A model generated the notes under the pieces. It had not been told where the DNA came from. It saw nothing but the letters and a program-made list of their open reading frames with translations, and did not search any database. The position numbers were made by a program, and so were the translations under genes. DNA of 59,247 nt from a virus, in IMG/VR virus record IMGVR_UViG_3300021961_000105, positions 1 through 59,247 of that record; one strand, given 5' to 3'. This document shows, piece after piece, positions 16,520 to 58,858 of this stretch (position 1 is its first letter; each line of letters starts with the position of its first letter).

Positions 16520-16521
16520 CT

Positions 16522-23816: not shown

Positions 23817-23824
23817 TATTTATG
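23817..23824 (-). promoter_or_regulatory. Late-promoter-like CATAAATA upstream of a terminator
   Basis: CATAAATAAATA reads leftward just after the stop of the 335-aa gene. A start near 23811 would transcribe straight into the terminator at 23797-23768, so it is either weak, a source of a short RNA, or not a promoter. Confidence 0.3.
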
Positions 23825-23826
23825 AA

Positions 23827-24834: not shown

Positions 24835-24880
24835 TTAAACAACTCCTTACAACTTTGGTGACGTTTGATTTAACTATCTT

Positions 24881-24888
24881 TATTTATA
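24881..24888 (-). promoter_or_regulatory. Late promoter TATAAATA for the 335-aa gene
   Basis: An exact TATAAATA on the minus strand, overlapping the stop of the preceding 225-aa gene. It lies 46 bases before the start at 24834. Confidence 0.65.
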
Positions 24889-25893: not shown

Positions 25894-25913
25894 TATTAGA
25901 ACCTGTTTTTAAG

Positions 25914-25921
25914 TATTTATG
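25914..25921 (-). promoter_or_regulatory. Late-promoter-like CATAAATA upstream of the 110-aa gene
   Basis: CATAAATA on the minus strand overlaps the end of the coiled-coil gene, 21 bases before the start at 25893. It has one mismatch to the T4 consensus. Confidence 0.45.
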
Positions 25922-26162
25922 AATTTGACTCCAGCTTTTGAATAATGAGTCTCATCATATCTTTCATTTCACTTACATCAGATTTTAACTGATCAATTTC
26001 ACTTATTTTTTCTTTCATATCATTGAGTTTGGAAACTTCTTTCAGTTTTTGACTTTTCAATTCAAGATATCCTTGATATTCCGAATCAGAACAATTTAAT
26101 ATGGCTTTTGTATTTTCATCACGAAACAATCCTCGGTTTCCTTCTACTGGTATTAAACTCAT
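25917..26162 (-). CDS. Small coiled-coil protein (81 aa)
   Basis: The start is set at the internal ATG at 26162 (SLIPVEGNRGLFRDENTKAI), because a longer frame would overlap the upstream gene by 44 bases and this N-terminus matches a small protein I recall in cyanophages. After residue 35 a charged helix begins (LELKSQKLKEVSKLNDMKEK), followed by ISEIDQLKSDVSEMKDMMRL. The hydrophobic heptad pattern predicts a parallel coiled coil, so the protein probably oligomerises. It follows the 2507-aa gene by four bases. A fibre or baseplate chaperone or trimerisation role is plausible. No enzyme motif is present. Confidence 0.7.
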   Translation of the reverse strand: MSLIPVEGNRGLFRDENTKAILNCSDSEYQGYLELKSQKLKEVSKLNDMKEKISEIDQLKSDVSEMKDMMRLIIQKLESNS

Positions 26163-26166
26163 GGTC

Positions 26167-38300: not shown

Positions 38301-41300
38301 ACTCATGATTTGCGGATGTTGTTACAGTTGATAATCCAGTAACTTCGTAATATGCAAATGTACTAATTCCAATTTCTGACCAACCTTCAAATACATGAGG
38401 AATAGTTGAAATTCCAGCATTCATAGTGAAACTGGTAGAACTTATAGAAGTTAGAACTGGGAATACTCTTCCATAAGAAGATGTGCCATCTGGGAAGATT
38501 GTTGTTGTAACACCTGCATGTTCTGCAGCACATGAGAAAGGTAAGTTAAATAAGAATACTTCATCACTAGTTTGATTTGCAGGTACATCATCTCGCAATA
38601 ATCCATGAGGAGAATAAGTAACAACTGTACAAATTCCACTAGCCTCATCATAAGAGAAGGTTTGAATACCAACTTCATCATAACCACAAGTAAATGCTAT
38701 GCCAGTGAGAGTTACAAGATCATCTTCACTAAGATTGTGAACAGAATCTGTAGTAATAGTAGTGACTCCGGTTATGTTATTATATAAAACGTTAGAAATA
38801 TTTAAAGAATCATATCTAATTGAGGTATCCGTGTATATTCCCACTGGAGTAAGTTTATCTCCAAGTTTGTATCCAATACCTGGGCGATCAAATTTAAAGT
38901 TTATGACACTGGATCCCATACCGATCTGAACAGAAAGTCTTGCATCCTGACCAACACCAGAAGATCCATCAGCGTAATCAAGTGATAGAGCACTATATCC
39001 AGTAGGCAAACCAATTACTGCGACTGGTAGGGAAGTTGTTGTGTATCCACTTCCAGCATTTACAACAGTATATCCTGTGATTGTTCCACCAGCACCGACA
39101 GAAGCGGTAATACTAGCACCAGTTCCAATAGTGGATGCAATGCTTACTACTGGAGCACTTCTATAACCAGAACCACCACCAGTAACAACAACATCACTAA
39201 TTGTTCCAGCAGCAGAAACAACTACAGTAGCCGCGGCACCAAGTAATGGTATGTAACCAAAACTGGTAGAAATGGAGACTTTCGATATTCTTCCAGCGTT
39301 TGGAGTACCACTTAAGAACCTCAGAACGTTTGTTCCACTACCATCTACAGTATAATCGACAGATGGGTTTTGGAAAACATTGTTGATTAGAACTATTGGA
39401 TTGTTACTAATTTCTGTTGCACTATTAACATCGTTGAAAACTGTGTCTGTTGTCTGGCCATTAGATTTTAAAGTAAATTCTGTCGCTGCAATACCAGTGA
39501 ATGACAACGATATATCATCGAATAGAATGTTCTTGTCCTCTGGAACACCAGCATCAAATCTTCTACTAAATGCTCTACCACCAAATATAGATCCGGTTTC
39601 TAATCCAACAGGACCTATTTGACCATATGGAGCAGTATCAAAATAAATTACATCACCAACAATATTGAAGCTACCGTTTAATACTGTAGCCGCAACACCA
39701 ACAGTATGTGCAGTTGAAACTGTTCCAAAGTAACCTCTCTCAACTTCCACATGATTTTCTGAAGAAACTCCAATCTTTTTGATTGAAACAAGTTCATTAT
39801 CAAGATTAATAATGTCACGAACATTTAATGAAGAAATTCCAGAAGAAACACTCAATATGTTTGTAGAAGCCGTAGAAACACTTGATGCAAGAACAACTTC
39901 AAGAGATTTTCTTGAGAGTGGTTTTTGTATTACTCCATCAATTGTTATTATTACACTAGCATTAGGATCTTTGTATTCTAGAGAATGTGTTGCAGTACCA
40001 ACACCAGTAAGATTCAAGAAAACACTGGTTGACAATCCAGCGAGTTTGAATTGATTATCATTTAGTTTAAATACGAAAAGATTAGATGGCAAAGAATCTG
40101 TGCCAAGTTCAAGTGGTCTGAAAGATAAATCATCATTTGATCCAGACCCACCGATATAAGTACCAGCAATTGAAATCACTGAATTGGAATCATATCCAGA
40201 TCCACCATTTAAAACATCGACAGAAGCAATTTCCCCATCATTATTTCTAAACACATTGAAAGTGGCTCCAGTTGCATCCGAAGAAGGAACTTCCAAATAA
40301 CTTTGATTTGCTTCTGCATCCAGTACTGTTGGACCTGTTGCGGAAACAACAAAACTCAAGTCATTTGTTGGAGTCGTTCCTCCCATGTATGTACCTGCGA
40401 TAGACACAGTTTCTCCAATCGAATATCCACTTCCACCCTTGATTAGAGTTATAGATGTTGAAAGTGGTTGTCCAGTAGATACACTATAAGTAATTGTAAC
40501 AGTGAATTCTGCATCAGTTCCTGTTGTTCCATTACCGACAGTTTGAACATACTGTTTGAAAGACGGTCCTACAGGAGACAGTACTGTAGATACACCTGTT
40601 ATAGAAGTTGTTAATGCGGATGTATATCCATTTTCAAGTATTGCAGTCCCATCAAACTCATGAACGTTCAATAGACTATCAACAGTTCCCGAAACATATG
40701 AAGTAGTTGCAATTCCAATAGGACTTCCATTTGTGTAAGAGTATATTAATTCTTGACCGGACTGGAAATTGTGGTTAAGAATAGTAAATGTATCTGTTGC
40801 AACATCAACACTAGAACCAGTAAATTCATGTTTGAATAGAGAAATTCCTTTATTTTTTAACTTAAAGGTACTCAATCCAACTACGGAACCACCTCTCGTT
40901 AATGATGGGAATGTTAAATCTGGTGCAAAATTTGTACCCAATCCAATAATTGTGGTTATAATTCCAACATAGTTACCGAGAGAAGCTCTGACATCTGCAC
41001 AATCTGCAGTTCCATAGAATTCTGTTGGAATACCGGCAAGACTACTATTTCCTACAGCAACCGTTAGAATTCCAACCAAGGTATCAATATTAGTTTGAAC
41101 ATCAGCACATGAAGATGGATCAGTATTAAATCCTGTAAGTGGGTCTGCTGTAATTGTAAGGTCCTTGGAATACAGTTGGTTTGTAACCGCCTGTTTCATG
41201 TATCCTTTTGCACTTTCAAATGCATAAATTGATTCAGATTCTTCGCCAATAAGTCCATCTGTTCTGGCAACCCCAGCACCATCAAAATACTTTTTAGTGT

Positions 41301-44300
41301 TGTATATTGTGTGTTGATTTGTTCCATAAGACAAGTCCTGTGCGACACCATCAACAATATAACTAAGATCACGATAACACTTATTACCACCAGTGGTATA
41401 GGTTCCAACATTAAGCGCTGGCAGAGTTGCCGTGGACCCTAGAGAGATGATTGACGTTATAATACCTACCAAGGTTATAACATTAGATTGAACGTCGGTA
41501 CAGGCGCTAGGATCTGTATTAGAAACTATGCTTCCTACACCATAAGTTGGTGGACCGGAAGTGATACCAACATCCTGAACAGAAAGTCCATTCCTAATGG
41601 CAATCTTCATCAAATCTCTGGACTGAACAAAGCCATAAATTGACTCCGATTTTCCTCCAGTCAATTTTCCAGAAATAATAATGTCATTACTAAAGTATTG
41701 AGCTGTAAATTCTCTAGAATATGTATTTCCTCCAGTAAATACGTCAACAGAGACTGCATCAACAAATTGACCCAAATCGGTCTTGAATTGAGAAATTACA
41801 GTAGAAATTCCTGGATAAACTGAAACAGTATTAGAATAAGAAGTATCAATAATTTCTTGTCTGTTTAATTGAATCAATCTATATCCATCATAATATCTCG
41901 ATCTCGCATTTGTTTGAGTATCTCCTGGGAAATAGAAATCCGGGAAGCCAATTCCAATGGAAGCAAGAGATCTATCTAGAATTTCTCTTCTATTTGCAAG
42001 AATAAGGTTTCTCGAATCCTTATACCTATTAACATCATCATTAAGTGGATCTGGGGTTACAGTGAAATTAAACTGTTGTTCTACTGATGATTGGTATAAG
42101 GTTGGTGGAGTTTGGTTATTAATTACATATTGTCCAATAAACTTTACATAGTTGTATGCAAATAATGTTTCATCGGTTTCATTTGTAACATATGAAGAAC
42201 CAGCATCCCAATATGCCAAACCAGCTTCAACAGACTTATTATTAGAATTATACTTAAGGTCGTGCGAAACAGCATCAACAATAAAACCAGTATCTCTGAG
42301 GCACTTTTCTTTACTATAAGTTGTACTCAATCCAATATTTGGATAATTAAATTCAACAAATGCAACTACCTCTTCTTTAATAAATTCTTTGTTTAAATCT
42401 AACAAATCAGAAGCGTCTGCATATCTTCCTCTCAGATATTGTTCGGAAGTTCCATTAAATTGACTAGAAATGTCATCAATACTTATAACCTTATTTGTTC
42501 TGTTCAATATGTAAGGTGCCAAATCAACTCCTTCATCAAAGAAAACATTTTGAGTTGATCCATTTTCTAATAATTCTTCCTCATAAACTTTAGCAAAATT
42601 TCTCCTAGTGTTCATTGATGTCACTTCATCAATATTGAGGAAAGTAAAAGAGTCAGTCGCAGCCAATATTGGTTTCATATTGGAAGACTTGGCTATTCCA
42701 ACAGAAACCTCATTTAATGTTGGACTTGTGACAATTTCCAAATCAGAAAATTCTTTAAATCCAGATGGGTGGACAATAGATCTTACAGATTCCCTCCAAG
42801 TAGAATATGGAATATTTCCTTTAATTGAATATGAGAACTTCTGGTAGTAGAAGTTATCAGATATTCTCTGAGAATATTCATTCAAAATACCGGAGGAAAG
42901 ATCTACCGAGGCAGTTTTGTCTCTGGAAACACCAAGAGTTGCAAATAAATTAAATTTATCAAAATATTCTACAGTACCAGTAATTTTAGATGTTTCTCCA
43001 TAAATCTTATCACCTACAGTTATATCGCCAGAAACATTTTTTAATCTCATTTGATTGAGAGTTCCATCCCAACCCCTCTCCATAATTCTACCGGAAAATC
43101 TTGGTGATGTAACAACTTCATTTGAAGAATAATTTACATCATCTTTCAAGATCATTTCAAAAACTGGCATATCATTTTTGTTAACTACGATACCCAGATT
43201 AAATTCATCACTATAATCACCAAAAGTGCCGGTAGATATACCAGTCATATCATAAGTGACAGTGTTGTTAACTGAATTTATTCCAGTAACAGTAAAGAAT
43301 GCATAGTCATATGAAGAAGAATTGAAATTAGCATTACCAAGAGCTCTTGTCTCATCTGTAAGTCTGCAGTTTTCAATAAAAATTTCATCTCCGACTTTAA
43401 AAGGATATACAAAATCAGTACTACCAAATCCAGTAGGTATAAATGGCGTCAGACCTGCAACGTTTGATAATTCCAGAGTTACAGAATCACCTACGACACT
43501 TATATTATCAATCTCATATCCATTTGAATTGAATATTGTTATCACTTCAAGTGGTTTAGCTATAGAGGTGGAGTTTTTATTGATAGTTACATTAGTTACT
43601 GATCCCCCAGAAATAACTGCACCGAGTTCTATTCCCAAATCACTATTTTTTACAAGTAATTTTGGTGGACTATTATATCTTCTACCGCCTGTTATTATTC
43701 CAACATAATCTATAGTTCTTATATCTTTTACACCAATAATCGTAGGAACACTCAAAGATGGTGATAATGTTGCGTCTGTTGGATAGTCAAATCCATCCTT
43801 CACTCTTGTAAAAGTTTCAACTCTACCAATAGTTGGAGATATTAACTTTACAACTGCATTTGTACCAGAATCACTCTTAATTTCTCTAACTTTAGGAACT
43901 TTGGAATATCCTCTTCCTGGGAAGTTTATTTTTAATTTAGATATTGGACCTAATGCAGTTGTGGATGTAGTTTTATAAGAAAAAGTTGTTAGATTTTCAT
44001 TTATAATCTGATTTTCAATAAATGTTGGTTTCTTGTTATTAAAGAAACTAAATGATTTATCAGTTACATTAGAAATAACAAAATCAGCATTAAGTCTGTG
44101 ATTTACAATACTAATTTTATTATTTGACAATACATCATAATCTGTAGATATTTGATTTTTACTTTGTTCGGAAGTTCCTTTAGTAAATAGTCCATAATAA
44201 ATTGGGAAAAACTGGCCAGATAGATCCAAAATTACTTTAGCACCAGGATCTCCGGAAATACCCTCTCTTTGCACAAAGAAACCTGTTCTTTCATTAATTT

Positions 44301-47300
44301 TTTCAACAAAATTAACATCAAAATAAAATTGTAAATCTAAACTTGAAAGACTAGAATCAGATAAATCAAATTCTATCTTTGTTGTTCTTATGCAAGTTAT
44401 TTGTGGATTTATAAAATGTAATTTTTGATCCGAACCACCAATAGAAGTGAAATTAACAAAATTAGAGTCTTCAATATCACTTCTATACTTACATAGTTTT
44501 ATTGCATTATAATCTGTTTTTAAAACATAATAAGTACCATAGTTTTCAAGACCATTTATTGGGTATTGAGCCACATAAACAACTTTATCGCCGGTTTCTA
44601 TATTACCATTATATGAAGAAACATCAATAGAATTATCAGATAATGAAACATCGGAATCAGAGAAAGAAACTTCTCTCATTAAAACTTTTCTATTTACAGG
44701 GTCAAAGAAAACTTTTACAACTTCATTATAGTCAGTGGTTATATTAAATTTAATAATATCATCAACTTGAAGATTATGATTGGATGTTGTAGTTACAACA
44801 CCTAAAGTTTTTCCTATAACTCCAGTAAGTTTAGGATATAAAGTAGTCAGAGAATGAGCTGCACCAATCACACCGTATGATTTTACCTGATCCCAAAATT
44901 CTACAGAATTGTTGTTAGTTCCAATACCATTGGAAGATGATGTTGTAAATCCAACCGTTGACAATCCGATAAAATCTCTACCCAGATTTACAGCGTAAAC
45001 TGTTTGATCATTCTCTAGTTGAATGGATTGAGCAACACCAACATTATTAACATATAAAGATGTTCCAGCAACACCGGATCCAGAATTGTATTTTAGTGGT
45101 TGACCTGTGTAGAATTTGTGACCAGGTAAATAGATACTTCTTGGTGGAATAAATCGGTTTTGCGCTGAGCTAGAACCAAAAGAAATAACACTTCTAATTG
45201 AACCTGTACTTCCAATTCCCACATCACTTCTAGGATCAAAAAATACACTATAGTTCTGTAATGAGTAGTCTTTTACCTCTCCAGTGGGAATTTCAAATTC
45301 TCTCGGAAGAAGAACTACATTGCCACCAGATACTGTATGAATTCCAGTATTTTCTAGTCTGTTTACATAAAAACCAGATCTCTTAAAATCAATACCAGTA
45401 ATTAATAATTTTTCTGTTCCAATTCCTATAAAATCATTGGTATTGAATCCATTAACATCTTTAACTTTTATAAAGGTAAACTTACTTGTTGTTGCTTCAT
45501 CTGCAATATCTTCGGATAATTGTACTTCTTTCTCCTGAACATTCGTTATTTTAACGCCTTGGAAAGCTGCTGCAGTAATAGTGGAGATTCCAGAAATTGT
45601 AATTGGTTGTTGATTTTTAATGCCATGAGGTCCTGAAGTTTTTATCAGAGTATTTGGTTGTCTTACAAAAAATTCTGCTTCAAGTACCTCTTCAACTATA
45701 GAAAAGTTCTCAACTTGTCTTCCTTCTAATTCACTTACAACAATATTTGGTTGTATTCCACCAGTTCCAGATATGTCTACATCTACCGGATCATTTACTT
45801 TATAGTTATCACCACTAGAGAATATTGAAACATCTTCTATTTTACCAGAATTTATTGATGTGACTGAAAATTCCTGTTTATACTCATCTAATACCGTATC
45901 AATTAAATCATAAGAAGAACTAGATCTATTCAAATAATATGGTCCAATATTTCTAGTTAGTTTTGTATCAAAAACATTAAAGTCTTGGTTAAATGCTGGT
46001 AAGAAGTTTTCTGCTGTTGGTTTATTGTAGAAATATGGACCAACAACATATGGATATTTTGGAATAGACTCATTTGATGCACTAACATCTATCGTTGAAA
46101 AATAAGCATATACACCATTAGGGTATTCTGGAGTTATTGCAAATCTACCATTATGAATGTCCAGATCTCCAGATCCATCATACTTATAATCATTGACAAA
46201 GAATCCCCCCTCAAAAGAAGGTGGTCTCTTACCACTAGTAGTATCAACATCTAAGACATAACCAGGATTCATTCTTCTTATGAATCCGCCGGTTGTAGTA
46301 TTATATGCATATGGTCCATAAATTGGATTACCATCATAAGCATAACCCAAAATGGGGGAGTGGTTTACCGTTCCCGTACTCTCCTTATTGTCTTCAGTAA
46401 AATTATCAGACAACTGATATCTCAATATCTTCGGTACGTAGAAAGAAATAAACTGTAGTCCCAGATTCGTATTTTTACTGGAATACAATATTCCATCGTC
46501 ATCTTTATTAATAACTTCTTTACTTTTAGATACTTGATTTATCTTCCATTCAGTTATATTAGCCAAGAATTTGGCATTTTGTCCCCTATTTTTTAAAGTC
46601 AACGTAGTATCTGATGATCCATAACCAACTCCACCAAAAACAATATTAACAGATTGAATAGATCCATCTGATATAATTGGTTCTAGTTGTGCAAAGTTTC
46701 CAGATCCACCTACTATTATTTCACAATTTTTTCTAAATCCCTTTCCTCTATTGATAATTTGAACGTCTACTATTGATCCATCTATAATAATAGGTTTCAA
46801 AATGGCATTGGAAGTTATACTTGAAACTCCAACATTAGGCCTTCTATGGAAATTAATAATATCAGTACATCCAAATCCAATTCCACCATCTTCAAGATAA
46901 ACATCATCAATTGATCCCAATACAATGGGAACCAATTCAGAGGTAATTATCGTTGTAGCTCCAGTACCAGACTTAGATTCCACTTTTATCTCAATAGGTG
47001 GATATCCAAAAGTATGGGTTCCTACTCCCAAAGACTCAAATTTAACAAATTTATTTTTATCGTAATTTTCGGAACTTAATTGAGTACTAACTCCAGCACT
47101 GTATAGTCTAAATTTGTTGTTATTTATTACTTTTACTTGATAATATAAAGATGTCGATAATCCACTAATAGGAGTATCTGATGATTGATAAACTACAAAT
47201 TCTTCATTAGAGAATCCGTGATTTCTTGCATAAACATATGAATCAAAAGTATTAATGCCCGCGATATTATCGTTTGAAGAAAGTAGTGAGGGAACTTTTA

Positions 47301-50034
47301 CCTTTCTATTAGAATAACCTCTTCCTGGATCTTTAACATAGATTTTAGTAAAAGTATTTTTGTTTTTTAAAGTTGTTATAAAGTGGAATCCAGAAGACAC
47401 CCCAACAATGTCAATTTCATTTTCTTTGCGAAGAGCGTCTTGTTGGGTATTGAATAATTTAATTTTATTATCAGTCAGAATTCCAACAAAATATATTGAA
47501 CTGTCTACAATACCAGGAAGATTTGAGTTTTTATTTGAATCGTATACAACTTCTTCACCATCTTCAAATGGAATAGTAGTAAGAAATTGTATAGTATTTG
47601 TTGGAGTGTCTACATTTAAATCTGCCTTAAATCCAACAGAAACTCTAGTACTAACAAAGTTAGATTCTAGAGCACAACCCTCTCCATTGCCACCGGTAAT
47701 TGTAACTTTTGGTTTTTCTTGATAACCATATCCAGCGCTTAATATTTTAACTTCTCTAACTGTACCGCTGAGATTTAGGTGGGCTTTAACTCCAGTTCCA
47801 ACTTCGTCTCTTACTTCTATCGGTGGAGATTCAATAACATCATATTCTTCTCCAGGATTAGTAACTTCAATAGAAGACAAACCACCATAATAAATGTTTT
47901 CATCAAATAGAGTTGGTGATAATAATTCAACACCATTTATTAATATTCCAAGTTCTCTGTTGAATGTAGTCCTCTCGTTCAAATCATCAAATAAAGACTT
48001 GGTAGCATTAAATGGGAATTTCTTTAAAAGTTTTTGGTGTTTTAAAGTTTTTTCTTCATATCCAGATTTGTAAAAAACATCACCTGATATTCCCGGATTA
48101 ACATCAATATACTTTTCGGAAAAAATATCAGATTTACTATATGATAATTTTATATTATTCTTATCAACTCTGGTTGCATAATAAATTCCTGTTGAAAGTC
48201 CAGAAGTTCCGGTATCATTACCATAATATAACAATTCTCCACTTAAGTAATTGTGGTTTGGGATATTAAAAATGTTTGTTTTAGAAGAACCAACATTAGT
48301 TGTTGCTATTTTCCTATTATCGGTTGAAAAAACTGTATAATTAGGCAATCCCGAAGATGTTACATAGAAAAACTTTTCATCAGAATCAATATATGTGTTT
48401 TGGACTCCTGCTGAAACATTTCCAAGATCTTGGAAATAGTTGCTGTAGTGATTTACTTTGTAAATCTTTTTCCTCAATACGGAGGATGTTAAAACAGTAA
48501 ATGATCCAGGATTTAACACCTGAATTAGAACTGTATTTGCATATTTTTTAATTAAATCAGAAGATGAGTATTCTACATCAATAATTTTAGCTTCTGTATT
48601 ATTACCAAACGGATCTACTAAAAGAATGGACTCTCCAACATAAAAATAAACTTTATCAAATAATTGAACTCTATATTTTGTACTGTCAACTTGATTTATT
48701 ACTTGAATATTATGGTTAGTTGGTAAGTTATACATCCAACTATTAAATTCGTATTCATCAAACAAATCTTTACCAAAACCAGATAAAGAAATAGAATCTC
48801 CGACTCTTAGATTAGACGTTTTGGAAAAATCAATAGTATCAATTACATTAACAACTCTAAATTCAACTTTAGATGTATTACCTACACCAATATAACTAAA
48901 AGCAAATTTTTCTTCAATTAAGTCTAAACCAAAGTCAAGAGGTTTAGATACATTTGTGACTCCTGTAAATTGATTTATATTTTTTCCAGTATAATTTATT
49001 GTAATAAAATCAGAATTTCTGGGTTTTACCAGAATCGCTCCAGAGTTAGCAAATCCAACTGTAGAGTCAACTAAAATATTATCAGCATTTTCCGAAACAC
49101 TCTCCAAAATTCTAGTTTTACCAGATACTTCAAAATTTCCACTAAATGAAGTACTATCTAGAGAAATCTCGTAAAAATTTTTATTTGAGACAGGTCTATA
49201 TTCTACATTAAAAATAGAAGCACTTACAGTTCCAATGCCAGTTATATTTTGGAATAAAAAATTACCTTTAGTGTCTATTGGATCTCCACCAGAAATTTTT
49301 TCTACAAGAATATTTTTTGTAGTAAAATATGAGTTTGAAGATGGACTTAGGGTATAATCCTGTGGTTTGATTATCTCAATATCAGAACCATATAAAATTT
49401 TGAAGAGTAGTTTATATGACTGATCAGTTCCCTTAGATGAATATAAATCCTTTATTTTATAGGCTATATTTTCTACAGAAATATTTTCATAAAAATCTCT
49501 GGACTCAAATCCGGGTAAAAATTCATACTTGAATTTTTCAAAAAACTCAACTAAAAATAAATTACTTAAATTAAAAACTACATCTCCACTTGAGTGTTCT
49601 TCAGAGTTGGTAGATGTAAATACAGCAAATTCTGGATTATCTAATGCTCTTAAATTTTCAATTCCACTAAACCCTCTTACACAGTTTTTGAACGATGTTG
49701 AGGTTTTTGATGTATATGTAATAATTTCATTGTTTATCTTTAGTAATCCATAAGTATCGGGCCAACCCTTCGTTGAAGTTACATTTATAGTTGTATCAAA
49801 ACTCAAGACATCAGAAGTCAGTGAAGTTTCTTCAATTAGGTCAATATTATTGAACTTTTTAGTATTTTTATACTTAGATATATTTGAAATAATATCAATG
49901 GAACCAGACTGGCTTTCCATTGATTTATAATACTGTTCAAGAAACTCTACAAGAAGAGGTGATTCTACAGATAGAAACTCTGGAATTTGTGATTCTATGA
50001 TAGAACCAATTTTTACCCTTTTGATTTCTGACAT
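35326..50034 (-). CDS. 7: Giant gp7-position baseplate wedge protein (4902 aa)
   Basis: It lies exactly between gp6 and gp8, where T4 encodes gp7 (1032 aa). The N-terminus (IGSIIESQIPEFLSVESPLL, then VEFLEQYYKSMESQSGSIDI) matches what I recall of cyanophage gp7-type proteins. The rest is a mosaic: GxGY beta repeats; a YHYH-type domain near 1225-1335 (SPILGYAYDGNPIYGPYAYN); Cys-containing helical repeats near 2580-3020 (NKCYRDLSYIVDGVAQDLSY); DISSxFxG units; HAGVTTxxFPDG modules near 3780-4045; and a beta-propeller near 4350-4650 (for example FVAVGADGVIRTSNNGFIW). The C-terminus is ARGENETGINTNGYYGRYSW, then AKIYDYQNRILGNPKTFDVF. The call as gp7 is positional plus N-terminal. It spans 14.7 kb as one uninterrupted frame and probably extends far outside the baseplate as a host-contact structure. 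Confidence 0.82.
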   Translation of the reverse strand: MSEIKRVKIGSIIESQIPEFLSVESPLLVEFLEQYYKSMESQSGSIDIISNISKYKNTKKFNNIDLIEETSLTSDVLSFDTTINVTSTKGWPDTYGLLKINNEIITYTSKTSTSFKNCVRGFSGIENLRALDNPEFAVFTSTNSEEHSSGDVVFNLSNLFLVEFFEKFKYEFLPGFESRDFYENISVENIAYKIKDLYSSKGTDQSYKLLFKILYGSDIEIIKPQDYTLSPSSNSYFTTKNILVEKISGGDPIDTKGNFLFQNITGIGTVSASIFNVEYRPVSNKNFYEISLDSTSFSGNFEVSGKTRILESVSENADNILVDSTVGFANSGAILVKPRNSDFITINYTGKNINQFTGVTNVSKPLDFGLDLIEEKFAFSYIGVGNTSKVEFRVVNVIDTIDFSKTSNLRVGDSISLSGFGKDLFDEYEFNSWMYNLPTNHNIQVINQVDSTKYRVQLFDKVYFYVGESILLVDPFGNNTEAKIIDVEYSSSDLIKKYANTVLIQVLNPGSFTVLTSSVLRKKIYKVNHYSNYFQDLGNVSAGVQNTYIDSDEKFFYVTSSGLPNYTVFSTDNRKIATTNVGSSKTNIFNIPNHNYLSGELLYYGNDTGTSGLSTGIYYATRVDKNNIKLSYSKSDIFSEKYIDVNPGISGDVFYKSGYEEKTLKHQKLLKKFPFNATKSLFDDLNERTTFNRELGILINGVELLSPTLFDENIYYGGLSSIEVTNPGEEYDVIESPPIEVRDEVGTGVKAHLNLSGTVREVKILSAGYGYQEKPKVTITGGNGEGCALESNFVSTRVSVGFKADLNVDTPTNTIQFLTTIPFEDGEEVVYDSNKNSNLPGIVDSSIYFVGILTDNKIKLFNTQQDALRKENEIDIVGVSSGFHFITTLKNKNTFTKIYVKDPGRGYSNRKVKVPSLLSSNDNIAGINTFDSYVYARNHGFSNEEFVVYQSSDTPISGLSTSLYYQVKVINNNKFRLYSAGVSTQLSSENYDKNKFVKFESLGVGTHTFGYPPIEIKVESKSGTGATTIITSELVPIVLGSIDDVYLEDGGIGFGCTDIINFHRRPNVGVSSITSNAILKPIIIDGSIVDVQIINRGKGFRKNCEIIVGGSGNFAQLEPIISDGSIQSVNIVFGGVGYGSSDTTLTLKNRGQNAKFLANITEWKINQVSKSKEVINKDDDGILYSSKNTNLGLQFISFYVPKILRYQLSDNFTEDNKESTGTVNHSPILGYAYDGNPIYGPYAYNTTTGGFIRRMNPGYVLDVDTTSGKRPPSFEGGFFVNDYKYDGSGDLDIHNGRFAITPEYPNGVYAYFSTIDVSASNESIPKYPYVVGPYFYNKPTAENFLPAFNQDFNVFDTKLTRNIGPYYLNRSSSSYDLIDTVLDEYKQEFSVTSINSGKIEDVSIFSSGDNYKVNDPVDVDISGTGGIQPNIVVSELEGRQVENFSIVEEVLEAEFFVRQPNTLIKTSGPHGIKNQQPITISGISTITAAAFQGVKITNVQEKEVQLSEDIADEATTSKFTFIKVKDVNGFNTNDFIGIGTEKLLITGIDFKRSGFYVNRLENTGIHTVSGGNVVLLPREFEIPTGEVKDYSLQNYSVFFDPRSDVGIGSTGSIRSVISFGSSSAQNRFIPPRSIYLPGHKFYTGQPLKYNSGSGVAGTSLYVNNVGVAQSIQLENDQTVYAVNLGRDFIGLSTVGFTTSSSNGIGTNNNSVEFWDQVKSYGVIGAAHSLTTLYPKLTGVIGKTLGVVTTTSNHNLQVDDIIKFNITTDYNEVVKVFFDPVNRKVLMREVSFSDSDVSLSDNSIDVSSYNGNIETGDKVVYVAQYPINGLENYGTYYVLKTDYNAIKLCKYRSDIEDSNFVNFTSIGGSDQKLHFINPQITCIRTTKIEFDLSDSSLSSLDLQFYFDVNFVEKINERTGFFVQREGISGDPGAKVILDLSGQFFPIYYGLFTKGTSEQSKNQISTDYDVLSNNKISIVNHRLNADFVISNVTDKSFSFFNNKKPTFIENQIINENLTTFSYKTTSTTALGPISKLKINFPGRGYSKVPKVREIKSDSGTNAVVKLISPTIGRVETFTRVKDGFDYPTDATLSPSLSVPTIIGVKDIRTIDYVGIITGGRRYNSPPKLLVKNSDLGIELGAVISGGSVTNVTINKNSTSIAKPLEVITIFNSNGYEIDNISVVGDSVTLELSNVAGLTPFIPTGFGSTDFVYPFKVGDEIFIENCRLTDETRALGNANFNSSSYDYAFFTVTGINSVNNTVTYDMTGISTGTFGDYSDEFNLGIVVNKNDMPVFEMILKDDVNYSSNEVVTSPRFSGRIMERGWDGTLNQMRLKNVSGDITVGDKIYGETSKITGTVEYFDKFNLFATLGVSRDKTASVDLSSGILNEYSQRISDNFYYQKFSYSIKGNIPYSTWRESVRSIVHPSGFKEFSDLEIVTSPTLNEVSVGIAKSSNMKPILAATDSFTFLNIDEVTSMNTRRNFAKVYEEELLENGSTQNVFFDEGVDLAPYILNRTNKVISIDDISSQFNGTSEQYLRGRYADASDLLDLNKEFIKEEVVAFVEFNYPNIGLSTTYSKEKCLRDTGFIVDAVSHDLKYNSNNKSVEAGLAYWDAGSSYVTNETDETLFAYNYVKFIGQYVINNQTPPTLYQSSVEQQFNFTVTPDPLNDDVNRYKDSRNLILANRREILDRSLASIGIGFPDFYFPGDTQTNARSRYYDGYRLIQLNRQEIIDTSYSNTVSVYPGISTVISQFKTDLGQFVDAVSVDVFTGGNTYSREFTAQYFSNDIIISGKLTGGKSESIYGFVQSRDLMKIAIRNGLSVQDVGITSGPPTYGVGSIVSNTDPSACTDVQSNVITLVGIITSIISLGSTATLPALNVGTYTTGGNKCYRDLSYIVDGVAQDLSYGTNQHTIYNTKKYFDGAGVARTDGLIGEESESIYAFESAKGYMKQAVTNQLYSKDLTITADPLTGFNTDPSSCADVQTNIDTLVGILTVAVGNSSLAGIPTEFYGTADCADVRASLGNYVGIITTIIGLGTNFAPDLTFPSLTRGGSVVGLSTFKLKNKGISLFKHEFTGSSVDVATDTFTILNHNFQSGQELIYSYTNGSPIGIATTSYVSGTVDSLLNVHEFDGTAILENGYTSALTTSITGVSTVLSPVGPSFKQYVQTVGNGTTGTDAEFTVTITYSVSTGQPLSTSITLIKGGSGYSIGETVSIAGTYMGGTTPTNDLSFVVSATGPTVLDAEANQSYLEVPSSDATGATFNVFRNNDGEIASVDVLNGGSGYDSNSVISIAGTYIGGSGSNDDLSFRPLELGTDSLPSNLFVFKLNDNQFKLAGLSTSVFLNLTGVGTATHSLEYKDPNASVIITIDGVIQKPLSRKSLEVVLASSVSTASTNILSVSSGISSLNVRDIINLDNELVSIKKIGVSSENHVEVERGYFGTVSTAHTVGVAATVLNGSFNIVGDVIYFDTAPYGQIGPVGLETGSIFGGRAFSRRFDAGVPEDKNILFDDISLSFTGIAATEFTLKSNGQTTDTVFNDVNSATEISNNPIVLINNVFQNPSVDYTVDGSGTNVLRFLSGTPNAGRISKVSISTSFGYIPLLGAAATVVVSAAGTISDVVVTGGGSGYRSAPVVSIASTIGTGASITASVGAGGTITGYTVVNAGSGYTTTSLPVAVIGLPTGYSALSLDYADGSSGVGQDARLSVQIGMGSSVINFKFDRPGIGYKLGDKLTPVGIYTDTSIRYDSLNISNVLYNNITGVTTITTDSVHNLSEDDLVTLTGIAFTCGYDEVGIQTFSYDEASGICTVVTYSPHGLLRDDVPANQTSDEVFLFNLPFSCAAEHAGVTTTIFPDGTSSYGRVFPVLTSISSTSFTMNAGISTIPHVFEGWSEIGISTFAYYEVTGLSTVTTSANHEFAVGDKVTLAGLAFTCDSAYVGLTTTIFPDGTSEYGYTFTVTAVNSATEFEFLAGISTIVHYYTGGGYTKKVPTVQRVLKYTDDSTDGARDFRVVSIGSTNQFTVLAGSISTIPHYYTQGGIVTFKQYEPFILTVEEVQTDTFAGFYPGQFIQFDDISSFFNGFRKKFTLATTLNGVRTVIGLKVPDGTDLDITNNIFIYINDVLQVPGTSYSFSGSRITFTEAPKAGSKCVILYYRGSSVDVELVDPPKTIKTGDNITIQENPLDPYDISQFDRVVKKIVTSDQLETFNYYSVGIITDPTRVRPLTWKKQLNDTVINGTLYSKSRPSLQSGVKPFATVIKKIQPDDTSIYVDNAYPLFSDVDNLSEDIRDLLILENKTVEQCVVESVVSSSSTVTSINILDGGIGYANTLSPKVVISETSITQKDPIFNWNGGVGLTTTYDLKSVKFNDRFVSVGASAIYATSYDGINWQLGTVGFGQTESLDFNSIESVGIGTSNLLVSVGSLGKIVKATDYNTSTSVWEQIPLKEDVALPGFGVVGQVGSGYTGSFNEIAYSSVTDSWVAVGAAGSIFVATGVTTDAFTSRFSSTLSDLNSVAFGAEYFVAVGADGVIRTSNNGFIWETASSPVVTNLNKVIYANGKFVAVGNNGKVIRNLTRDTYEIITNNLGVSDITNIHYAYGFYIITLSSGDLYYSFDLSDWIYRSTNQSNLLNDFAFVDNLGSDGRYVAVGAGATSIYAEPVLNRATATSSVTSGVVTSIQIDNPGFGYDPTNPPPTLVELDTYKTETVKSFKVVGDFGTIIGIQTYLSGTPGIGTTSPKISFTLKSEQYDNSTLGIGYSSLNVLGVTNSQLSKGDYFVITDSNVETGGNLIGISTLLGGMASYPDSVIGVATQFIDGVYRVEDVTTPSIGIVTVTCNFAPMVDNYVKVYSRGENETGINTNGYYGRYSWAKIYDYQNRILGNPKTFDVFTDNGLTGLSTSPKIMRTRNVVSQ
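36080..36980 (-). other. Beta-propeller domain of the 4902-aa protein
   Basis: Six or so units of about 45 residues follow the pattern F-x-S-V-G-x-x-G-x-I-x-x-S-x-D/N-G-x-x-W. Examples are ATSYDGINWQLGTVGF, WVAVGAAGSIFVATG, YFVAVGADGVIRTSNNGFIW, FVAVGNNGKVIRN and YFYSFDLSDWIYR-like turns. This is typical of BNR/Asp-box or Ycf48-like propellers. It covers about residues 4350-4650 of the protein. Confidence 0.65.
37930..38760 (-). repeat. HAGVTTxxFPDG modules in the 4902-aa protein
   Basis: Two full units (LFNLPFSCAAEHAGVTTTIF and LAGLAFTCDSAYVGLTTTIF) plus a third GSISTIPHYY end and a KKVPTV linker. The order and sequence match the block at 13380-14300 in the 2367-aa fibre, including near-identical DNA at 38491-38523. 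Confidence 0.8.
46030..46360 (-). other. YHYH-type domain of the 4902-aa protein
   Basis: The motif LGYAYDGNPIYGPYAY and the later NGVYAYFSTID and KYPYVVGPYFYN fit the YHYH-domain pattern (G-x-A-x-D-G-x-P-I-Y-G-P). It covers about residues 1225-1335. The family's biochemical role is not established. Confidence 0.65.
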
Positions 50035-50035: not shown

Positions 50036-51910
50036 TTATCTCGTATACTTTCCGTTTAGGTAGCTAGATGTAGTTACATAATTTGTTGCAGAAGAATTTT
50101 CGCCAGAACTGACAACATCTTCTACAATATTTACCACAGTATTTTGAACGTCCAATTGCAAATACAAATCTTGCAATCCAATAATATCATTTGATTCTGG
50201 AATTGCTTGAACCTCAATAAATCCATTGGCCAAAGAAGCAGATGTTATATTGACAACATCTAATCGTATTTCACCCCTAACATAATCAACAGTTCCTGCA
50301 ATATTTTTTACATTCACAGGCAAATTATTGACCAACTTGAAGAAGAAAATTGTTCCAGTTTTTGCATTTGTGGATACTGGTCGGTCTGCCATATAAAGTG
50401 TTTCAGTCACCCCATCAATAGTAAATCCTGTAGATTTTATCGAATATCCAGAATCTCTAGTATGTATTTGATTTCCAAAGCAAAGTTCATAAGTTGCAAA
50501 AGAGTTGATTTCTGGATTCAAGTCTCTTCTCATTTTAACTTTAGTTATGTTTGAAGTTATAGACTTGTCACAATCATCGATGAGACCAACTATCTTACTA
50601 TATTTGAATCTACCACCAAAACTATTTACATCTTTTGAATTAGAATATTCAGTTAAAGTGTTCGTTACTTTTGTTTTTGCTTTTTCTGGATTACTTAGTA
50701 AATTTGCATTATAATAAGCGGAAACATCCAATTCAATATAAAGATATGACAAATCAACGATCTCTGGTCTAATTCCAGCAATAGAATATTTTCTAATTGT
50801 ACTTAAAATATTCTGTTTTGTGATTTGAGACAAAAATGTACCATTTCTGGGTTTAATGGATATGAAAACTTTTCCATATTCTGGGGGATCCAATTCGTCA
50901 CCACCGTATGCATTTACCGACTCTACATTTGGGTAAATATATGGAACTAAAGCTTTGTAGTCATTTGATGTTACAGCACGATACTGCGAGGCATACACTT
51001 TTGGTGAAAAATACTTAATAGAATCTACAGATTCTATCTCATCACCACTTTCAGATTTTGACTGAGTTAATAGTAGAGAAATTCCAGTTGTAATATCAAG
51101 TAAATTGTTATCCTTTAATCTTCCAGAAAAAGTAAAGTTTGTAGCTCCATTTCCAAAAGATCCGTTTGTAACAATATAACTAACTTCTATCCTACTACCA
51201 TTAGTTGGTTTTTTACCAATAATATTATCTCCAAATCTAATTTCATATTTTGTTCCTTCAACTTCTTGAATCAAGAATAATCTAGTTTCTTTACCAACAT
51301 CCAACAGAGTATCATACGCAGTATAAGTCTCAGTTACAGCATCAGTTACTTTTACTCTAATAGAAGTTGTGTCAATATTACTATTTGGTAATACAAATCT
51401 CTGATTTGGTTGAGATTCATCTACAATAAATGTACTGGTAAGGAATATTCCTTCATAAATGGGTAAATTATCGAAAATGGCTATTCCATCACTATTAACA
51501 GGTGTTGTAATATCCTCTGGGATTGAAAAAATATAATTACCATTTACTACTGCACCAAGAGCAACTTGACCTGCTAATAATTTAACTGTTCTAGCATCAG
51601 TTGCGCTCATATCAACAGTGAAACTTACTGTTGCTCTAGAAGATCTTTTTGATCTTGGTAAATATCCAATATTTCTAGAAAGTGAAACTACATTCTCCCG
51701 CAAAGTTGCACTTTCCAAAAATACTTCATTAACCGCCATGTTTGAGTTGAAGGCAGTTATATAACTGTTATAGGCTAGTAAATCTATTAGAACCGAAAAG
51801 TTAGACCCTTCAAAATCAAAATCTGTAAAATTTTGATTTGCACGTAAATAGTCCTTGATCTGAGTCCTTAGATCACTGAAATCTAAATTTGTAAATTGAT
51901 TGAATGACAT
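50036..51910 (-). CDS. 6: gp6-like baseplate wedge protein
   Basis: gp6 forms the wedge ring connecting gp25/gp53 to the inner baseplate and is required for tail assembly. The N-terminus reads NQFTNLDFSDLRTQIKDYLR, then FDFEGSNFSVLIDLLAYNSY and VNEVFLESATLRENVVSLSR. The NIGYLPRSKRSSRATVSFTV motif follows (residues ~85-104). All are hallmark gp6/J-like baseplate wedge sequences. The middle contains EIRFGDNIIGKKPTNGSRIEV and SQYRAVTSNDYKALVPYIYP. Length is 624, against 660 in T4. The start shares bases with the gp25 stop (TGATG), and the stop lies one base before the gp7-position giant, so gp25-gp6-gp7 are tightly coupled. Confidence 0.92.
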   Translation of the reverse strand: MSFNQFTNLDFSDLRTQIKDYLRANQNFTDFDFEGSNFSVLIDLLAYNSYITAFNSNMAVNEVFLESATLRENVVSLSRNIGYLPRSKRSSRATVSFTVDMSATDARTVKLLAGQVALGAVVNGNYIFSIPEDITTPVNSDGIAIFDNLPIYEGIFLTSTFIVDESQPNQRFVLPNSNIDTTSIRVKVTDAVTETYTAYDTLLDVGKETRLFLIQEVEGTKYEIRFGDNIIGKKPTNGSRIEVSYIVTNGSFGNGATNFTFSGRLKDNNLLDITTGISLLLTQSKSESGDEIESVDSIKYFSPKVYASQYRAVTSNDYKALVPYIYPNVESVNAYGGDELDPPEYGKVFISIKPRNGTFLSQITKQNILSTIRKYSIAGIRPEIVDLSYLYIELDVSAYYNANLLSNPEKAKTKVTNTLTEYSNSKDVNSFGGRFKYSKIVGLIDDCDKSITSNITKVKMRRDLNPEINSFATYELCFGNQIHTRDSGYSIKSTGFTIDGVTETLYMADRPVSTNAKTGTIFFFKLVNNLPVNVKNIAGTVDYVRGEIRLDVVNITSASLANGFIEVQAIPESNDIIGLQDLYLQLDVQNTVVNIVEDVVSSGENSSATNYVTTSSYLNGKYTR

Positions 51911-52308
51911 CAGATTCTGGTTGGTTGTAGTAGGAACTCTACAGTTTGAGTTGGAACTGGAATACCAATAATATCATATGAAATTTTTATGTTAAGATCA
52001 TTGGATTCATCAGGATAAGTTACTAAAACTGATGAAACTTTTACTCTCCTCTCAAAGTTTTTAAGAAGAGTCCTAATATCCAACTCCAAAGAGTAAGCTA
52101 TCTCTGGAGTTTGTATTTCAAACATCGAATCTTCAACTTTAGATCCGAGTTGTTGATTAAAAAATCTTTCACCAGTCTTAGTTCTTACCAAATTTATAAC
52201 TGATTTTTTAATTGCATCAGCATCATTAATTGCAAGAATATCATTAGTTACAGGATTTCTCACAAAAGAGAGACTAATATCTTTAAATTTGCGAGAAATC
52301 CTAGTCAT
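51910..52308 (-). CDS. 25: gp25-like baseplate wedge protein
   Basis: This is a 132-residue protein with the gp25/lysozyme-like baseplate fold, a core element of all contractile injection systems. It contains FKDISLSFVRNPVTNDILAI, then DADAIKKSVINLVRTKTGER and FFNQQLGSKVEDSMFE. These are the classic gp25 motifs (loop R-T-x-x-G-E-R-x-F). Length equals T4 gp25 (132). No catalytic Glu of a true lysozyme is expected in this family. It overlaps gp6 by one base, and a late-type box precedes the start by 16 bases. Confidence 0.93.
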   Translation of the reverse strand: MTRISRKFKDISLSFVRNPVTNDILAINDADAIKKSVINLVRTKTGERFFNQQLGSKVEDSMFEIQTPEIAYSLELDIRTLLKNFERRVKVSSVLVTYPDESNDLNIKISYDIIGIPVPTQTVEFLLQPTRI

Positions 52309-53234: not shown

Positions 53235-53405
53235 TTAGTTTTCTTCAGTTAGTTCTTTAATTTTATCATCGATAGAAGCTTGTTTTAGATGTGGCATATA
53301 GTTCATAGCAATACTGTATAATTGTTTCTCAACATCATACAGATATTTTTCTGAAACTCCGTCGCTACCTTTTTTATGAGTGTCTGGTTTACTATTAAAG
53401 TCCAT
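53235..53405 (-). CDS. Small hypothetical protein (56 aa)
   Basis: This is a 56-residue protein running from ATG at 53405 to TAA at 53235. It reads MDFNSKPDTHKKGSDGVSEK, then LYDVEKQLYSIAMNYMPHLK and SIDDKIKELTEEN. It is helical and charged, with no recognised family. It is separated by seven bases from the next gene and by 20 bases from the previous one. Compact packing in a run of short minus-strand genes supports it as real. Confidence 0.55.
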   Translation of the reverse strand: MDFNSKPDTHKKGSDGVSEKYLYDVEKQLYSIAMNYMPHLKQASIDDKIKELTEEN

Positions 53406-53425
53406 TTTTTTAACTTATGGAATTA

Positions 53426-53581
53426 TCAACCTGCTGCTAAAGGAGAAGCAGGATTTGGTTTTGCAGGAACTACTTTTCTTGCATTTGCAGATACATCATA
53501 ACCAAAAACTTTTGCACTTTCTGGAGCAGATGCTGGTGCATCTGCTGCTGATGGTCCTACTTTTGGGGTTGTTTCTGACAT
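53426..53581 (-). CDS. Small Ala/Pro-rich protein (51 aa)
   Basis: The product (SETTPKVGPSAADAPASAPE, then SAKVFGYDVSANARKVVPAK, ending in SPLAAG) is a short, low-complexity Ala/Pro/Ser peptide from ATG at 53581 to TGA. It has an exact late promoter 25 bases upstream, so it is probably expressed with the virion genes. Alternatively it may be a leader or linker peptide. No family is recognised. Confidence 0.6.
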   Translation of the reverse strand: MSETTPKVGPSAADAPASAPESAKVFGYDVSANARKVVPAKPNPASPLAAG

Positions 53582-53605
53582 CTTTTTAAATTAATAATTT
53601 AAAAT

Positions 53606-53613
53606 TATTTATA
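53606..53613 (-). promoter_or_regulatory. Late promoter TATAAATA for the 51-aa gene
   Basis: An exact TATAAATA reads leftward, just beyond the stop of the basic 50-aa gene and 25 bases before the start at 53581. Confidence 0.65.
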
Positions 53614-53615
53614 AA

Positions 53616-53768
53616 TCAACCTTTGCCTTGACCACGATATGCTTTACGAGCCTTGTTGCGACTCGTTGCAGCATACTTAGTTCCTTTTCCATTACCCTGA
53701 CGGGTTTTCTTAGGAGGGCCGGGAACATGAGCCTTTTTACTAAGTCCACCTTTTGCTTTTACTGCCAT
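53616..53768 (-). CDS. Small basic protein (50 aa), possible DNA-binding or virion protein
   Basis: The 50-residue product reads MAVKAKGGLSKKAHVPGPPK, then KTRQGNGKGTKYAATSRNKA and RKAYRGQGKG. It is strongly basic (18 Lys/Arg), with Gly and Pro but no acidic residues. Very similar short proteins (KAKGGLSKKAHVxGPPKKTRQG) are, from memory, widespread in T4-like cyanophages. The composition suits nucleic-acid binding or packaging with DNA. A perfect hairpin lies 33 bases upstream of the start. The ATG start is unambiguous and the frame closes at TGA 53616. Confidence 0.72.
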   Translation of the reverse strand: MAVKAKGGLSKKAHVPGPPKKTRQGNGKGTKYAATSRNKARKAYRGQGKG

Positions 53769-53800
53769 TTTTTAGTACCTCAAGATTGTTTTTTTATTTT

Positions 53801-53825
53801 GCGCTTTAGTCAATAACTAAAGCGC
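53801..53825. other. Perfect 10-bp inverted repeat with adjacent A/T tract
   Basis: GCGCTTTAGT and ACTAAAGCGC form a perfect 10-bp stem with the loop CAATA. On the minus strand the stem is followed by AAAATAAAAAAA rather than T. On the plus strand the T run comes before it. It is therefore not a canonical terminator in either direction. It sits in the 93-base gap between the GT-A gene and the basic 50-aa gene. Confidence 0.65.
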
Positions 53826-53861
53826 GCCGAAAGTCCATTTGTCGGGGTTTTAAGACCTATA

Positions 53862-54614
53862 TCAGATGATACGAGTCTTCTCGTGTCCAACACGAATTTG
53901 GGGGTCACACCAGATCTCATAACCCGCAGCCTTGGCATCAAGACAGAAAGATACGTCTTCACCACACATATCTTGAACTTCACCAGAATCAAAGACTTGC
54001 ATCTTAGGAGCGAACCAGGGATACTCTAGAGACTCGAAGACACCATGTTTGATCAGAGTCCAACCAAAACCAGTGTAGTCAACAGTGAATGGTTTACGAC
54101 GCTTACTCATCGTTTCACCAGTTTCATGATTCATGACACCACCGTTGTTCTTGAAGTCATCTTCTTCAAGCCAGTGTGCAACAGAGGTGGTATGACCATC
54201 TTCAGTCATGTACCAACCACATGCAATGTCCTTATCCATTGCAACTAGACGATAGAATCCTTCAGTGCTGAAGACAATATCGTTGTCAATCCAGAGTTGA
54301 TAGTCATATTTCAGTTTACCATCCCAGGGAATCTGTTTGGGCCCACGGAGAACGTTTGCACCAAGAACTTTACAACGTGCAAAGTTAACCATGGAGGAAT
54401 AATCTTGTGAAATTTGAATGGCTGCACCATTCTGAACAAGATCAAAACAAAGTTGGACAAAATTCTTTAGAAAAATATAAGAACACCCACGACCGGGAAG
54501 CATGAATACGATACTCTTACCGCGAATCATCTCTTTTGCAGCGGCTAGATCGAAATCTCCTTCTTTCTTTTTTGGGGTGGGTGCGTTAGCTTTAATTGTA
54601 AATCCTTTAGACAT
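53862..54614 (-). CDS. GT-A-type glycosyltransferase (250 aa)
   Basis: The Rossmann-like N-terminal half (IVFMLPGRGCSYIFLKNFVQ at about 35-54) leads to a D-x-D metal site, DND at residues 110-112 (YDYQLWIDNDIVFS). C-terminal catalytic-type elements follow: TGFGWTLIKHGVFES (about 181-195), GED at 218-220 (CGEDVSFCLDAKAAGY) and H244. This layout is that of retaining or inverting GT-A enzymes using a nucleotide sugar and a divalent metal. The acceptor cannot be read. A host-sigma70-like promoter and a CTAAATA box both lie upstream. It is part of a block with an acyltransferase, another glycosyltransferase-like gene and a 2OG-type protein, implying glycan modification of virions or of the host surface. 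Confidence 0.78.
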   Translation of the reverse strand: MSKGFTIKANAPTPKKKEGDFDLAAAKEMIRGKSIVFMLPGRGCSYIFLKNFVQLCFDLVQNGAAIQISQDYSSMVNFARCKVLGANVLRGPKQIPWDGKLKYDYQLWIDNDIVFSTEGFYRLVAMDKDIACGWYMTEDGHTTSVAHWLEEDDFKNNGGVMNHETGETMSKRRKPFTVDYTGFGWTLIKHGVFESLEYPWFAPKMQVFDSGEVQDMCGEDVSFCLDAKAAGYEIWCDPQIRVGHEKTRII

Positions 54615-57827: not shown

Positions 57828-58106
57828 TCAAAGTTCAGTCATCATCTCTAGCATTTCCTCCTCATTGATTGCTTCATCATCCCAACGAACTCCGTCACGA
57901 GTCTGAACCAAATGACGACCAATCTGCCCATCAGTCATACAACGAACAAACTTAGCCCAAGGGGTCTCGTCATCACTGCAGAACTCAACACATGCCTTTG
58001 CAGTGTTATAGAGAAACTCATCATTTCCAATCCACAGAGCAGCATTCCAGGTCTCGTAGTTAGTCCAGCCGTTGTAGGTCTCTTTGATGGTTTGAGTGTT
58101 GCTCAT
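57828..58106 (-). CDS. Small acidic protein with NGWTNYETW motif (92 aa)
   Basis: The start at 58106 follows an AGAGGA ribosome site. The N-terminal motif YNGWTNYETWNAALWIGNDE (about 11-30) is one I recall in many small phage and cyanobacterial proteins of unknown function. The middle contains CVEFCSDDETPWAKFV, then DGQIGRHLVQTRDGVRWDDE. The C-terminus is acidic and Met-rich (EEEMLEMMTEL). It is likely cytoplasmic and early. Function unknown. Confidence 0.75.
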   Translation of the reverse strand: MSNTQTIKETYNGWTNYETWNAALWIGNDEFLYNTAKACVEFCSDDETPWAKFVRCMTDGQIGRHLVQTRDGVRWDDEAINEEEMLEMMTEL

Positions 58107-58391
58107 GTGTGTTCCTCTCAACATGGCTAAGATACCAGGCCTGAGCCCCCTCTGGCATCATCTGTGGCCACTTGTAGGACTGTCCACTATTCTCTCTGTT
58201 GTCAAGGTTCTATGGTAAGCTCATGAGTCTTTGTCCCTTGAGCTTAACTGGAGCTGGCTTAGTGGCTTAAGCATTCAAAGCATACTTATGAAACTCCACA
58301 GAGTAATTGTACACCACATGAGTAGGCTATGGCAACTCTTGAAGATGTGTCCCCTTGGAGTGCTCATAAGACTGCGGAGAAACTATAAAAG

Positions 58392-58657
58392 TTTTCCACA
58401 ATTTCCACAGGGATGCTGTGGAAAACTCAGAGGACTTATGTGTAGCAAACTGTGTGGGTTCTGAGACTTATGTGGGGGGGTCTCTTGACATTTATGCGAT
58501 CGTGTGATAGCCTGCACGCTAAGACAACAAGAACTCAGAGGCTTTTCAGAGAACATAAACACTCGAAAGCTTTCACACAGCTACATTTTTTTAGCCATTT
58601 TTTAAAGCTTAACTTTTCCACAGCTTTTTCCACAAGTTATCAGAAACCTGTGAAAAA
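58392..58657. promoter_or_regulatory. Cluster of cyanobacterial-type DnaA boxes (origin-like)
   Basis: Exact TTTTCCACA at 58392-58400 (+), 58614-58622 (+) and 58626-58634 (+), and on the minus strand at 58425-58417. One-mismatch copies are at 58401-58409 (+) and 58657-58649 (-). TTTTCCACA is the box reported for cyanobacterial chromosome origins. The spacing gives two groups about 190 bases apart, flanking an AT-rich stretch. Confidence 0.65.
58485..58513 (+). promoter_or_regulatory. Possible rightward promoter inside the DnaA-box region
   Basis: TTGACA (58485-58490), a 17-base spacer ending in TGA, then TAGCCT (58508-58513). The -35 is perfect and an extended -10 TG is present. The -10 keeps T, A and the final T only. 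It would transcribe between the two DnaA-box groups, towards the right group. Confidence 0.35.
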
Positions 58658-58732
58658 CTCATGCTAACTAACTCTTTGAGGACTAGGAGAATATAACTCC
58701 ACTCCTCTTTAGGTGTTGTTTCGGTAGAGAGC

Positions 58733-58858
58733 TTAGGGGTCATAAGACTCAGCATCTATAGACCCCTGAGAGTAATCATCCCAATCAATTACGTTCTCTT
58801 CAGTGTTACTTTGTTCGAGAAGTTCTTGATAGAAATCGAACTCTTCTTGTCCCATCAT
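58733..58858 (-). CDS. Small acidic protein (41 aa)
   Basis: From ATG 58858 (or 58855) to TAA 58733, reading MMGQEEFDFYQELLEQSNTE, then ENVIDWDDYSQGSIDAESYD. The ATGA overlap with the stop of the upstream 61-aa gene and an AGAGGAACAA ribosome site support it as real. It is strongly acidic, with no family recognised. Acidic micro-proteins of phages often mimic DNA or bind host factors, but that is not shown here. Confidence 0.6.
   Translation of the reverse strand: MMGQEEFDFYQELLEQSNTEENVIDWDDYSQGSIDAESYDP

Follow-up and report, generated by a model that had tools for sequence, protein, structure and literature searches.

The window, that is the whole stretch of DNA analysed (59,247 nucleotides), represents a 59-kb piece of a T4-like cyanomyovirus genome and carries gp25 and gp6. 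Giant ORFs of 4902, 2507, 2367 and 2283 aa occupy the minus strand downstream of gp6 (35326-50034 and 9375-33690) and are probably structural. Between the gene of a 98-aa conserved hypothetical protein and a 41-aa ORF on the minus strand (approximately 58733-58858) there is a gap of about 608 bp; it is gene-free, as stated in the preliminary description of this DNA, and shorter than the 626 bp given there. Two plus-strand ORFs within the gap (58231-58464 and 58452-58667) are open frames with nothing further in their favour. The landmarks and the features of the gap are the following:

50036-51910, minus strand: gp6, a T4-like marker; gp6 and gp25 together span 50036-52308.
51910-52308, minus strand: gp25, encoding the baseplate wedge; it served as the positional landmark and is 6.1 kb away from the array.
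57828-58124, minus strand: gene of the 98-aa conserved hypothetical protein, located downstream of the module; a marker for finding relatives, outside the proposed mechanism.
58306-58335, minus strand: sigma70-like promoter TTGCCA-N18-TACAAT, directed at the 98-aa gene and gp25.
58392-58425: DnaA-box array 1, with TTTTCCACA at 58392-58400 (plus), ATTTCCACA at 58401-58409 (plus, one mismatch) and TTTTCCACA at 58417-58425 (minus).
58480-58532, plus strand: conserved block with a divergent sigma70-like promoter, TTGACA-N17-TAGCCT (58485-58513), toward the AT tract and array 2.
58580-58612, plus strand: AT-rich tract, a candidate unwinding element, adjoining array 2 and downstream of the divergent promoter.
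58614-58657: DnaA-box array 2, with TTTTCCACA at 58614-58622 (plus), TTTTCCACA at 58626-58634 (plus) and TTTTTCACA at 58649-58657 (minus, one mismatch).

The four exact TTTTCCACA boxes and the two one-mismatch sites, all of the host type, were recovered at the same positions as in the preliminary description, and the AT-rich tract reported amid the boxes was located as well. The density of the boxes had been claimed to be far above chance, and this was borne out: the order-1 model predicted 0.0115 exact boxes in the gap, and the maximum in 20,000 simulations was 1. Only one further exact box, at 33268, was present outside the gap in the 59-kb window. One-mismatch sites were not in excess over the whole window (29 observed vs 31.8 expected); therefore, the signal is the cluster. 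The two exact boxes of array 2 (58614 and 58626) are spaced by 12 bp. Another 9-mer, ACTGTCCAC, was also present in the window near 58179.

The 9-mer TTTTCCACA is the published cyanobacterial DnaA box (PMC4674748; see also PMC3480399). The domain IV of Cyanothece DnaA binds paired TTTTCCACA boxes cooperatively, with a preference for two perfect boxes separated by 2 nt over two imperfect boxes separated by 10 nt (PMC4674748). In the phage arrays, the gap between neighbouring boxes was often 2-3 nt. The spacings of boxes in the same orientation were 11-12 or 21-22 bp, phased near 10.5 bp, where the p-values are only indicative as the phasing test counts related loci as independent. Directly repeated boxes within 30 bp were found in 13 of 81 Cyanobiaceae genomes and, with the reversed control motif, in 0 of 81. 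The array was situated upstream of dnaN in only two of the 13 (G059 and G060), and its 12/22-bp spacing in G060 matched the phage arrays. WH7803 has a normal DnaA, the domain IV of which contains DHTTV, and only two near-match boxes (TTTTCCACG and TTTTCCCCA) upstream of dnaN. The phage arrays thus resemble the dnaN-proximal oriC of cyanobacteria in the 9-mer, in the intergenic placement and, in one host, in the spacing. In contrast to oriC, they have fewer boxes than that of S. elongatus (11) and belong to lytic phages with their own T4-type replisome, with no dnaN or dnaA adjacent. A bacterial oriC was rejected as an identity of the locus, given that neither dnaA nor dnaN is annotated next to the phage arrays and that no DnaA domain IV (DnaA_C) was encoded in 11 phage records.

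The conservation of the cluster was determined with 80 IMG/VR relatives collected via the neighbouring 98-aa protein. The preliminary description had named the absence of boxes from close relatives as evidence against its reading; the closest relatives (L002-L006) retained the array, with 3-6 exact boxes upstream of the 98-aa gene, several of them at identical offsets. In many other relatives, the box clusters were 1.4-4 kb away from the 98-aa gene. When no motif was preset, TTTTCCACA ranked first among all 9-mers, forming pairs in 19 and triples in 13 of 55 non-redundant loci (total 83). Across ten complete Kyanoviridae genomes, it again led all 9-mers in pairing, with clusters in eight of them, always 4.5-7.6 kb upstream of gp25. 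IMG/VR scans using paired boxes alone resulted in 211 loci; at least two cyanomyovirus proteins were encoded at 116 of these vs 13 of 120 reversed-motif control loci. The 120 are a lower bound on the control matches, so that the total numbers of loci from the two scans are not comparable. At the 71 IMG/VR loci including gp25, 274 boxes were upstream and 2 downstream of this gene, the sequence in the gp25-bearing loci plus the window amounting to 459 kb upstream and 247 kb downstream. Among isolates, the cluster was detected in S-PM2, S-RIM32, Syn9, P-SSM7, S-RIM2, P-TIM68, S-CAM8, S-RIM14, ACG-2014a, ACG-2014d, DSL-LC02 and Syn30. The array is at about 19.2 kb in S-PM2 and at about 52.6 kb in Syn9.

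Clustered boxes were absent from the isolates P-SSM2, ACG-2014f, S-H34, P-RSM6, S-WAM2, ACG-2014i, S-PRM1 and S-SCSM2R, and no box cluster was found in the tested Pelagibacter and Methylophilales Kyanoviridae, in T4 or in Aeromonas phage 25. With at least eight sampled relatives lacking clustered boxes, host DnaA is not required family-wide. In S-WAM2 and S-SCSM2R, the conserved block was retained (E 9e-5 and 1.4e-6, respectively) and the boxes were absent, therefore the boxes are not indispensable. At the box position, S-WAM2 and several IMG/VR relatives have another repeat, TTGAGAATCAATAA / TTGATAATCAATAA, and one relative (L059) has both kinds. The replacement repeat is distributed as follows:

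L028, L059, L065, L069, L072 and L075; S-WAM2 at 53.47-53.61 kb: TTGAGAATCAATAA / TTGATAATCAATAA / GGTTCTCAATAAG, about three copies, adjoining the conserved promoter block.

Judging from these repeats, the recruiting protein seems to be exchangeable at the module.

Several other elements were noted in the relatives. The 9-mers ACTGTCCAC (71 copies) and ACTGGCACA (60 copies) were strongly over-represented in the non-redundant relatives L001-L082, and a conserved inverted repeat, ATTCTCAATAGACTTTCTTATTGAGAATCGCGG, was present about 1 kb upstream of the 98-aa gene in the cyanophages L017, L018, L028 and L044. In S-PM2 14000-31000 (L082), several tRNAs are annotated, two of them over the box array; these were not found by ARAGORN on that stretch and are probably annotation errors. 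On the downstream side of the origin-like module, a long inverted repeat of AAATCTCAAAA-type units immediately precedes a small conserved gene:

S-PM2, 19031-19931.
S-RIM32, 60607-61507.
S-WAM2, 53300-54100.

Intergenic arrays were detected also in three T4-like phages of Vibrio, F86, nt-1 and R10Z. They contain 5-8 boxes of the type used by their own hosts, TTATCCACA and its one-mismatch variants, within about 100-120 bp. The positions of these TTATCCACA-type (gammaproteobacterial) arrays are:

nt-1 (L645), 541-649.
R10Z (L646), 596-704.
F86 (L642), 1975-2092.

No exact TTATCCACA was found in KVP40 and Aeh1. The Vibrio phages carry TTATCCACA and the cyanophages TTTTCCACA, so that, among the examined phages with boxes, the type of box goes with the host. 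A designed cluster of cyanobacterial-type DnaA boxes, as the preliminary description had proposed, is strongly supported by the motif, the phasing, the conserved position, the dnaN-side arrays of hosts and the Vibrio phages, and host DnaA very likely binds the array.

The usual order of the elements in the gp25 orientation is the box array, the AT-rich tract, the conserved block of about 50 bp and a strong promoter toward gp25. The AT content beside the boxes was modestly elevated, 73% vs 62% (mean of 55 loci). A profile of the conserved block, trained on IMG/VR loci of other phages only, matched the window at 58480-58532 with an E value of 3.6e-7. It also matched eight of eight box-bearing isolate genomes, adjoining the boxes, and further isolates likewise. 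The opposite strand of the block reads as a sigma70-like promoter, mostly TTGACA-N17-TAnnnn, oriented toward both the AT tract and the boxes; TTGACA, allowing one mismatch, was present at 45 of 49 loci, and the -10 element was frequently poor (TAAGAC).

Judged from its sequence, the region is on balance probably a replication-initiation site of a T4-like cyanophage which uses host DnaA and resembles T4 oriE and oriF. Early after infection, host DnaA would bind cooperatively to the phased boxes, which in this reading substitute for the 12-nt oriE iterons of T4, and would destabilise the adjoining AT tract. The opening would be helped by host RNA polymerase transcribing across the AT tract from the divergent promoter, and the divergent transcript could form an R-loop primer, as at T4 oriF. 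The forks would be built by the phage gp59/gp41/gp61/gp43, and later replication would switch to recombination.

At T4 oriF, the transcript of a promoter is trapped as an R-loop primer by an AT-rich unwinding element (DUE) downstream of it, and oriE combines iterons with an early promoter, the iterons being conserved in syntenic regions of relatives (PMC3016281). The arrangement of a promoter transcript entering an AT-rich unwinding element is present in the cyanophage module at the sequence level, with the often weak -10, and the box arrays with the sigma70 promoter correspond to the phased repeats near an early promoter in oriE. Several host-clade boxes and helically phased spacing, as expected of a DnaA binding region, were both found. 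The module is thus similar to oriE as a repeat array adjoining an early promoter in a T4-like phage; it differs in that the 12-mers of oriE are directly repeated, whereas here a 9-bp host DnaA box occurs in both orientations. With oriF (ori uvsY), which adjoins gene 25, it shares the promoter followed by an AT-rich unwinding tract. However, oriF is annotated on the downstream side of gene 25 and the cyanophage module is 2-10 kb upstream of gp25, therefore only adjacency is claimed. A further difference is that oriF has a MotA middle promoter and no DnaA-box cluster, and the cyanophage module has sigma70-like promoters. As in the phage module, host DnaA boxes adjoin an AT-rich region at the origins of P1 (oriR), F and pSC101, but initiation there depends on a Rep protein of the replicon itself and on the loading of DnaB. 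T4-like phages supply a helicase and a loader of their own, and the search for homologous plasmid sequence was negative. A plasmid-like maintenance element, one of the suggestions of the preliminary description, gained no support: there was no plasmid match and no rep gene was seen, and the annotated neighbours in relatives are short hypotheticals.

For Syn9, a single theta origin has been predicted according to a review (PMC2984593), which does not extend the prediction to other cyanomyoviruses. A compositional skew shift has been seen at some T4 origins (PMC3016281). The GC-skew check suggested earlier for this DNA was run and gave no support for an origin, as the skew did not switch globally at the cluster and a shallow dip there was shared by phages without boxes. 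A skew shift is not a required feature of an origin; its absence lowers the claim.

The main rival explanation is that the boxes are operators by which host DnaA, acting as a transcription factor, times or tunes early transcription from the two sigma70 promoters with no origin involved. DnaA is a known promoter regulator, the locus is upstream of small early-type genes, and the boxes co-occur with the divergent promoter block and with a near-consensus sigma70 promoter toward gp25, which was found within 350 bp of the array at 52 of 70 loci. The corresponding figures were 8 of 70 for the divergent direction and 12.7% for the same-strand background in the remaining sequence upstream of gp25. The distance from the array to the gp25-ward promoter, however, varies widely, from 3 to 307 bp, unlike that of a simple operator. 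Moreover, the first genes after the module belong to at least five unrelated families, and the annotated genes faced by the divergent promoter are nearly all on the opposite strand. As the module is kept while the downstream genes change, a genome-level cis function is more likely than service to one gene, and the sequence comparison is pointing to such a function. We regard the operator explanation as rather unlikely.

Less probable still, and quite doubtful, is a DnaA sponge, in which the array titrates host DnaA and blocks the initiation of the host chromosome as phage copies build up. The compact array of high-quality consensus boxes and the increase of the phage copy number during infection are in agreement with titration. 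On the other hand, the clusters contain only 2-8 exact boxes at a single locus, neither spread nor amplified, and titration would become effective only once the phage had replicated. Nor would a sponge require that the array be fixed in place upstream of gp25, be helically phased or be accompanied by an AT tract and promoters. Among the functions suggested in the preliminary description, the DnaA-assisted origin therefore fits best and the sponge is a possible but worse fit.

It is very unlikely that another protein, encoded by the phage or a host factor besides DnaA, recognises TTTTCCACA here. The repeats TTGAGAATCAATAA / TTGATAATCAATAA at the same place in S-WAM2-like phages are in its favour, as the site may have more than one binding protein; the identity of the motif with the published cyanobacterial box, the array spacing equal to that of the host array beside dnaN and the host-matched box types of the Vibrio phages argue against it. 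An incidental likeness to DnaA boxes of inverted pairs forming RNA hairpins (a terminator or processing site) is hardly credible: such pairs could give a 9-11 bp stem in many arrays, but the explanation is rejected because several arrays (L241, L211, L252, L275 and others) have a single orientation, and in addition no U-run was present in the flanks examined, Rfam gave nothing above threshold and merely a chance microRNA match below it, and the Vibrio phages carry the TTATCCACA form, as the specificity of host DnaA predicts.

To our knowledge, T4-like phages are usually regarded as independent of host initiators, and the limited set of papers searched contained no account of DnaA boxes in either cyanophages or T4-like phages. 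A phage origin using host DnaA is of a known kind; what is new here is its occurrence in a group thought not to need DnaA. A wider proposal, to which we give slightly less than even chances, is that T4-like phages repeatedly build origins that recruit host DnaA, the box sequence being adapted to the host clade (cyanophages having TTTTCCACA and Vibrio phages TTATCCACA) and the box module being exchangeable for other repeats at the same site. For the marine T4-like cyanophages, which are abundant, the work offers a precise, conserved candidate start site together with a mechanism that can be tested, and it suggests a role of host DnaA in T4-like infections. If host DnaA has this role, the timing of phage replication would be tied to the level of host DnaA, and the host-matched box type could act as a host-range signal in metagenomes.
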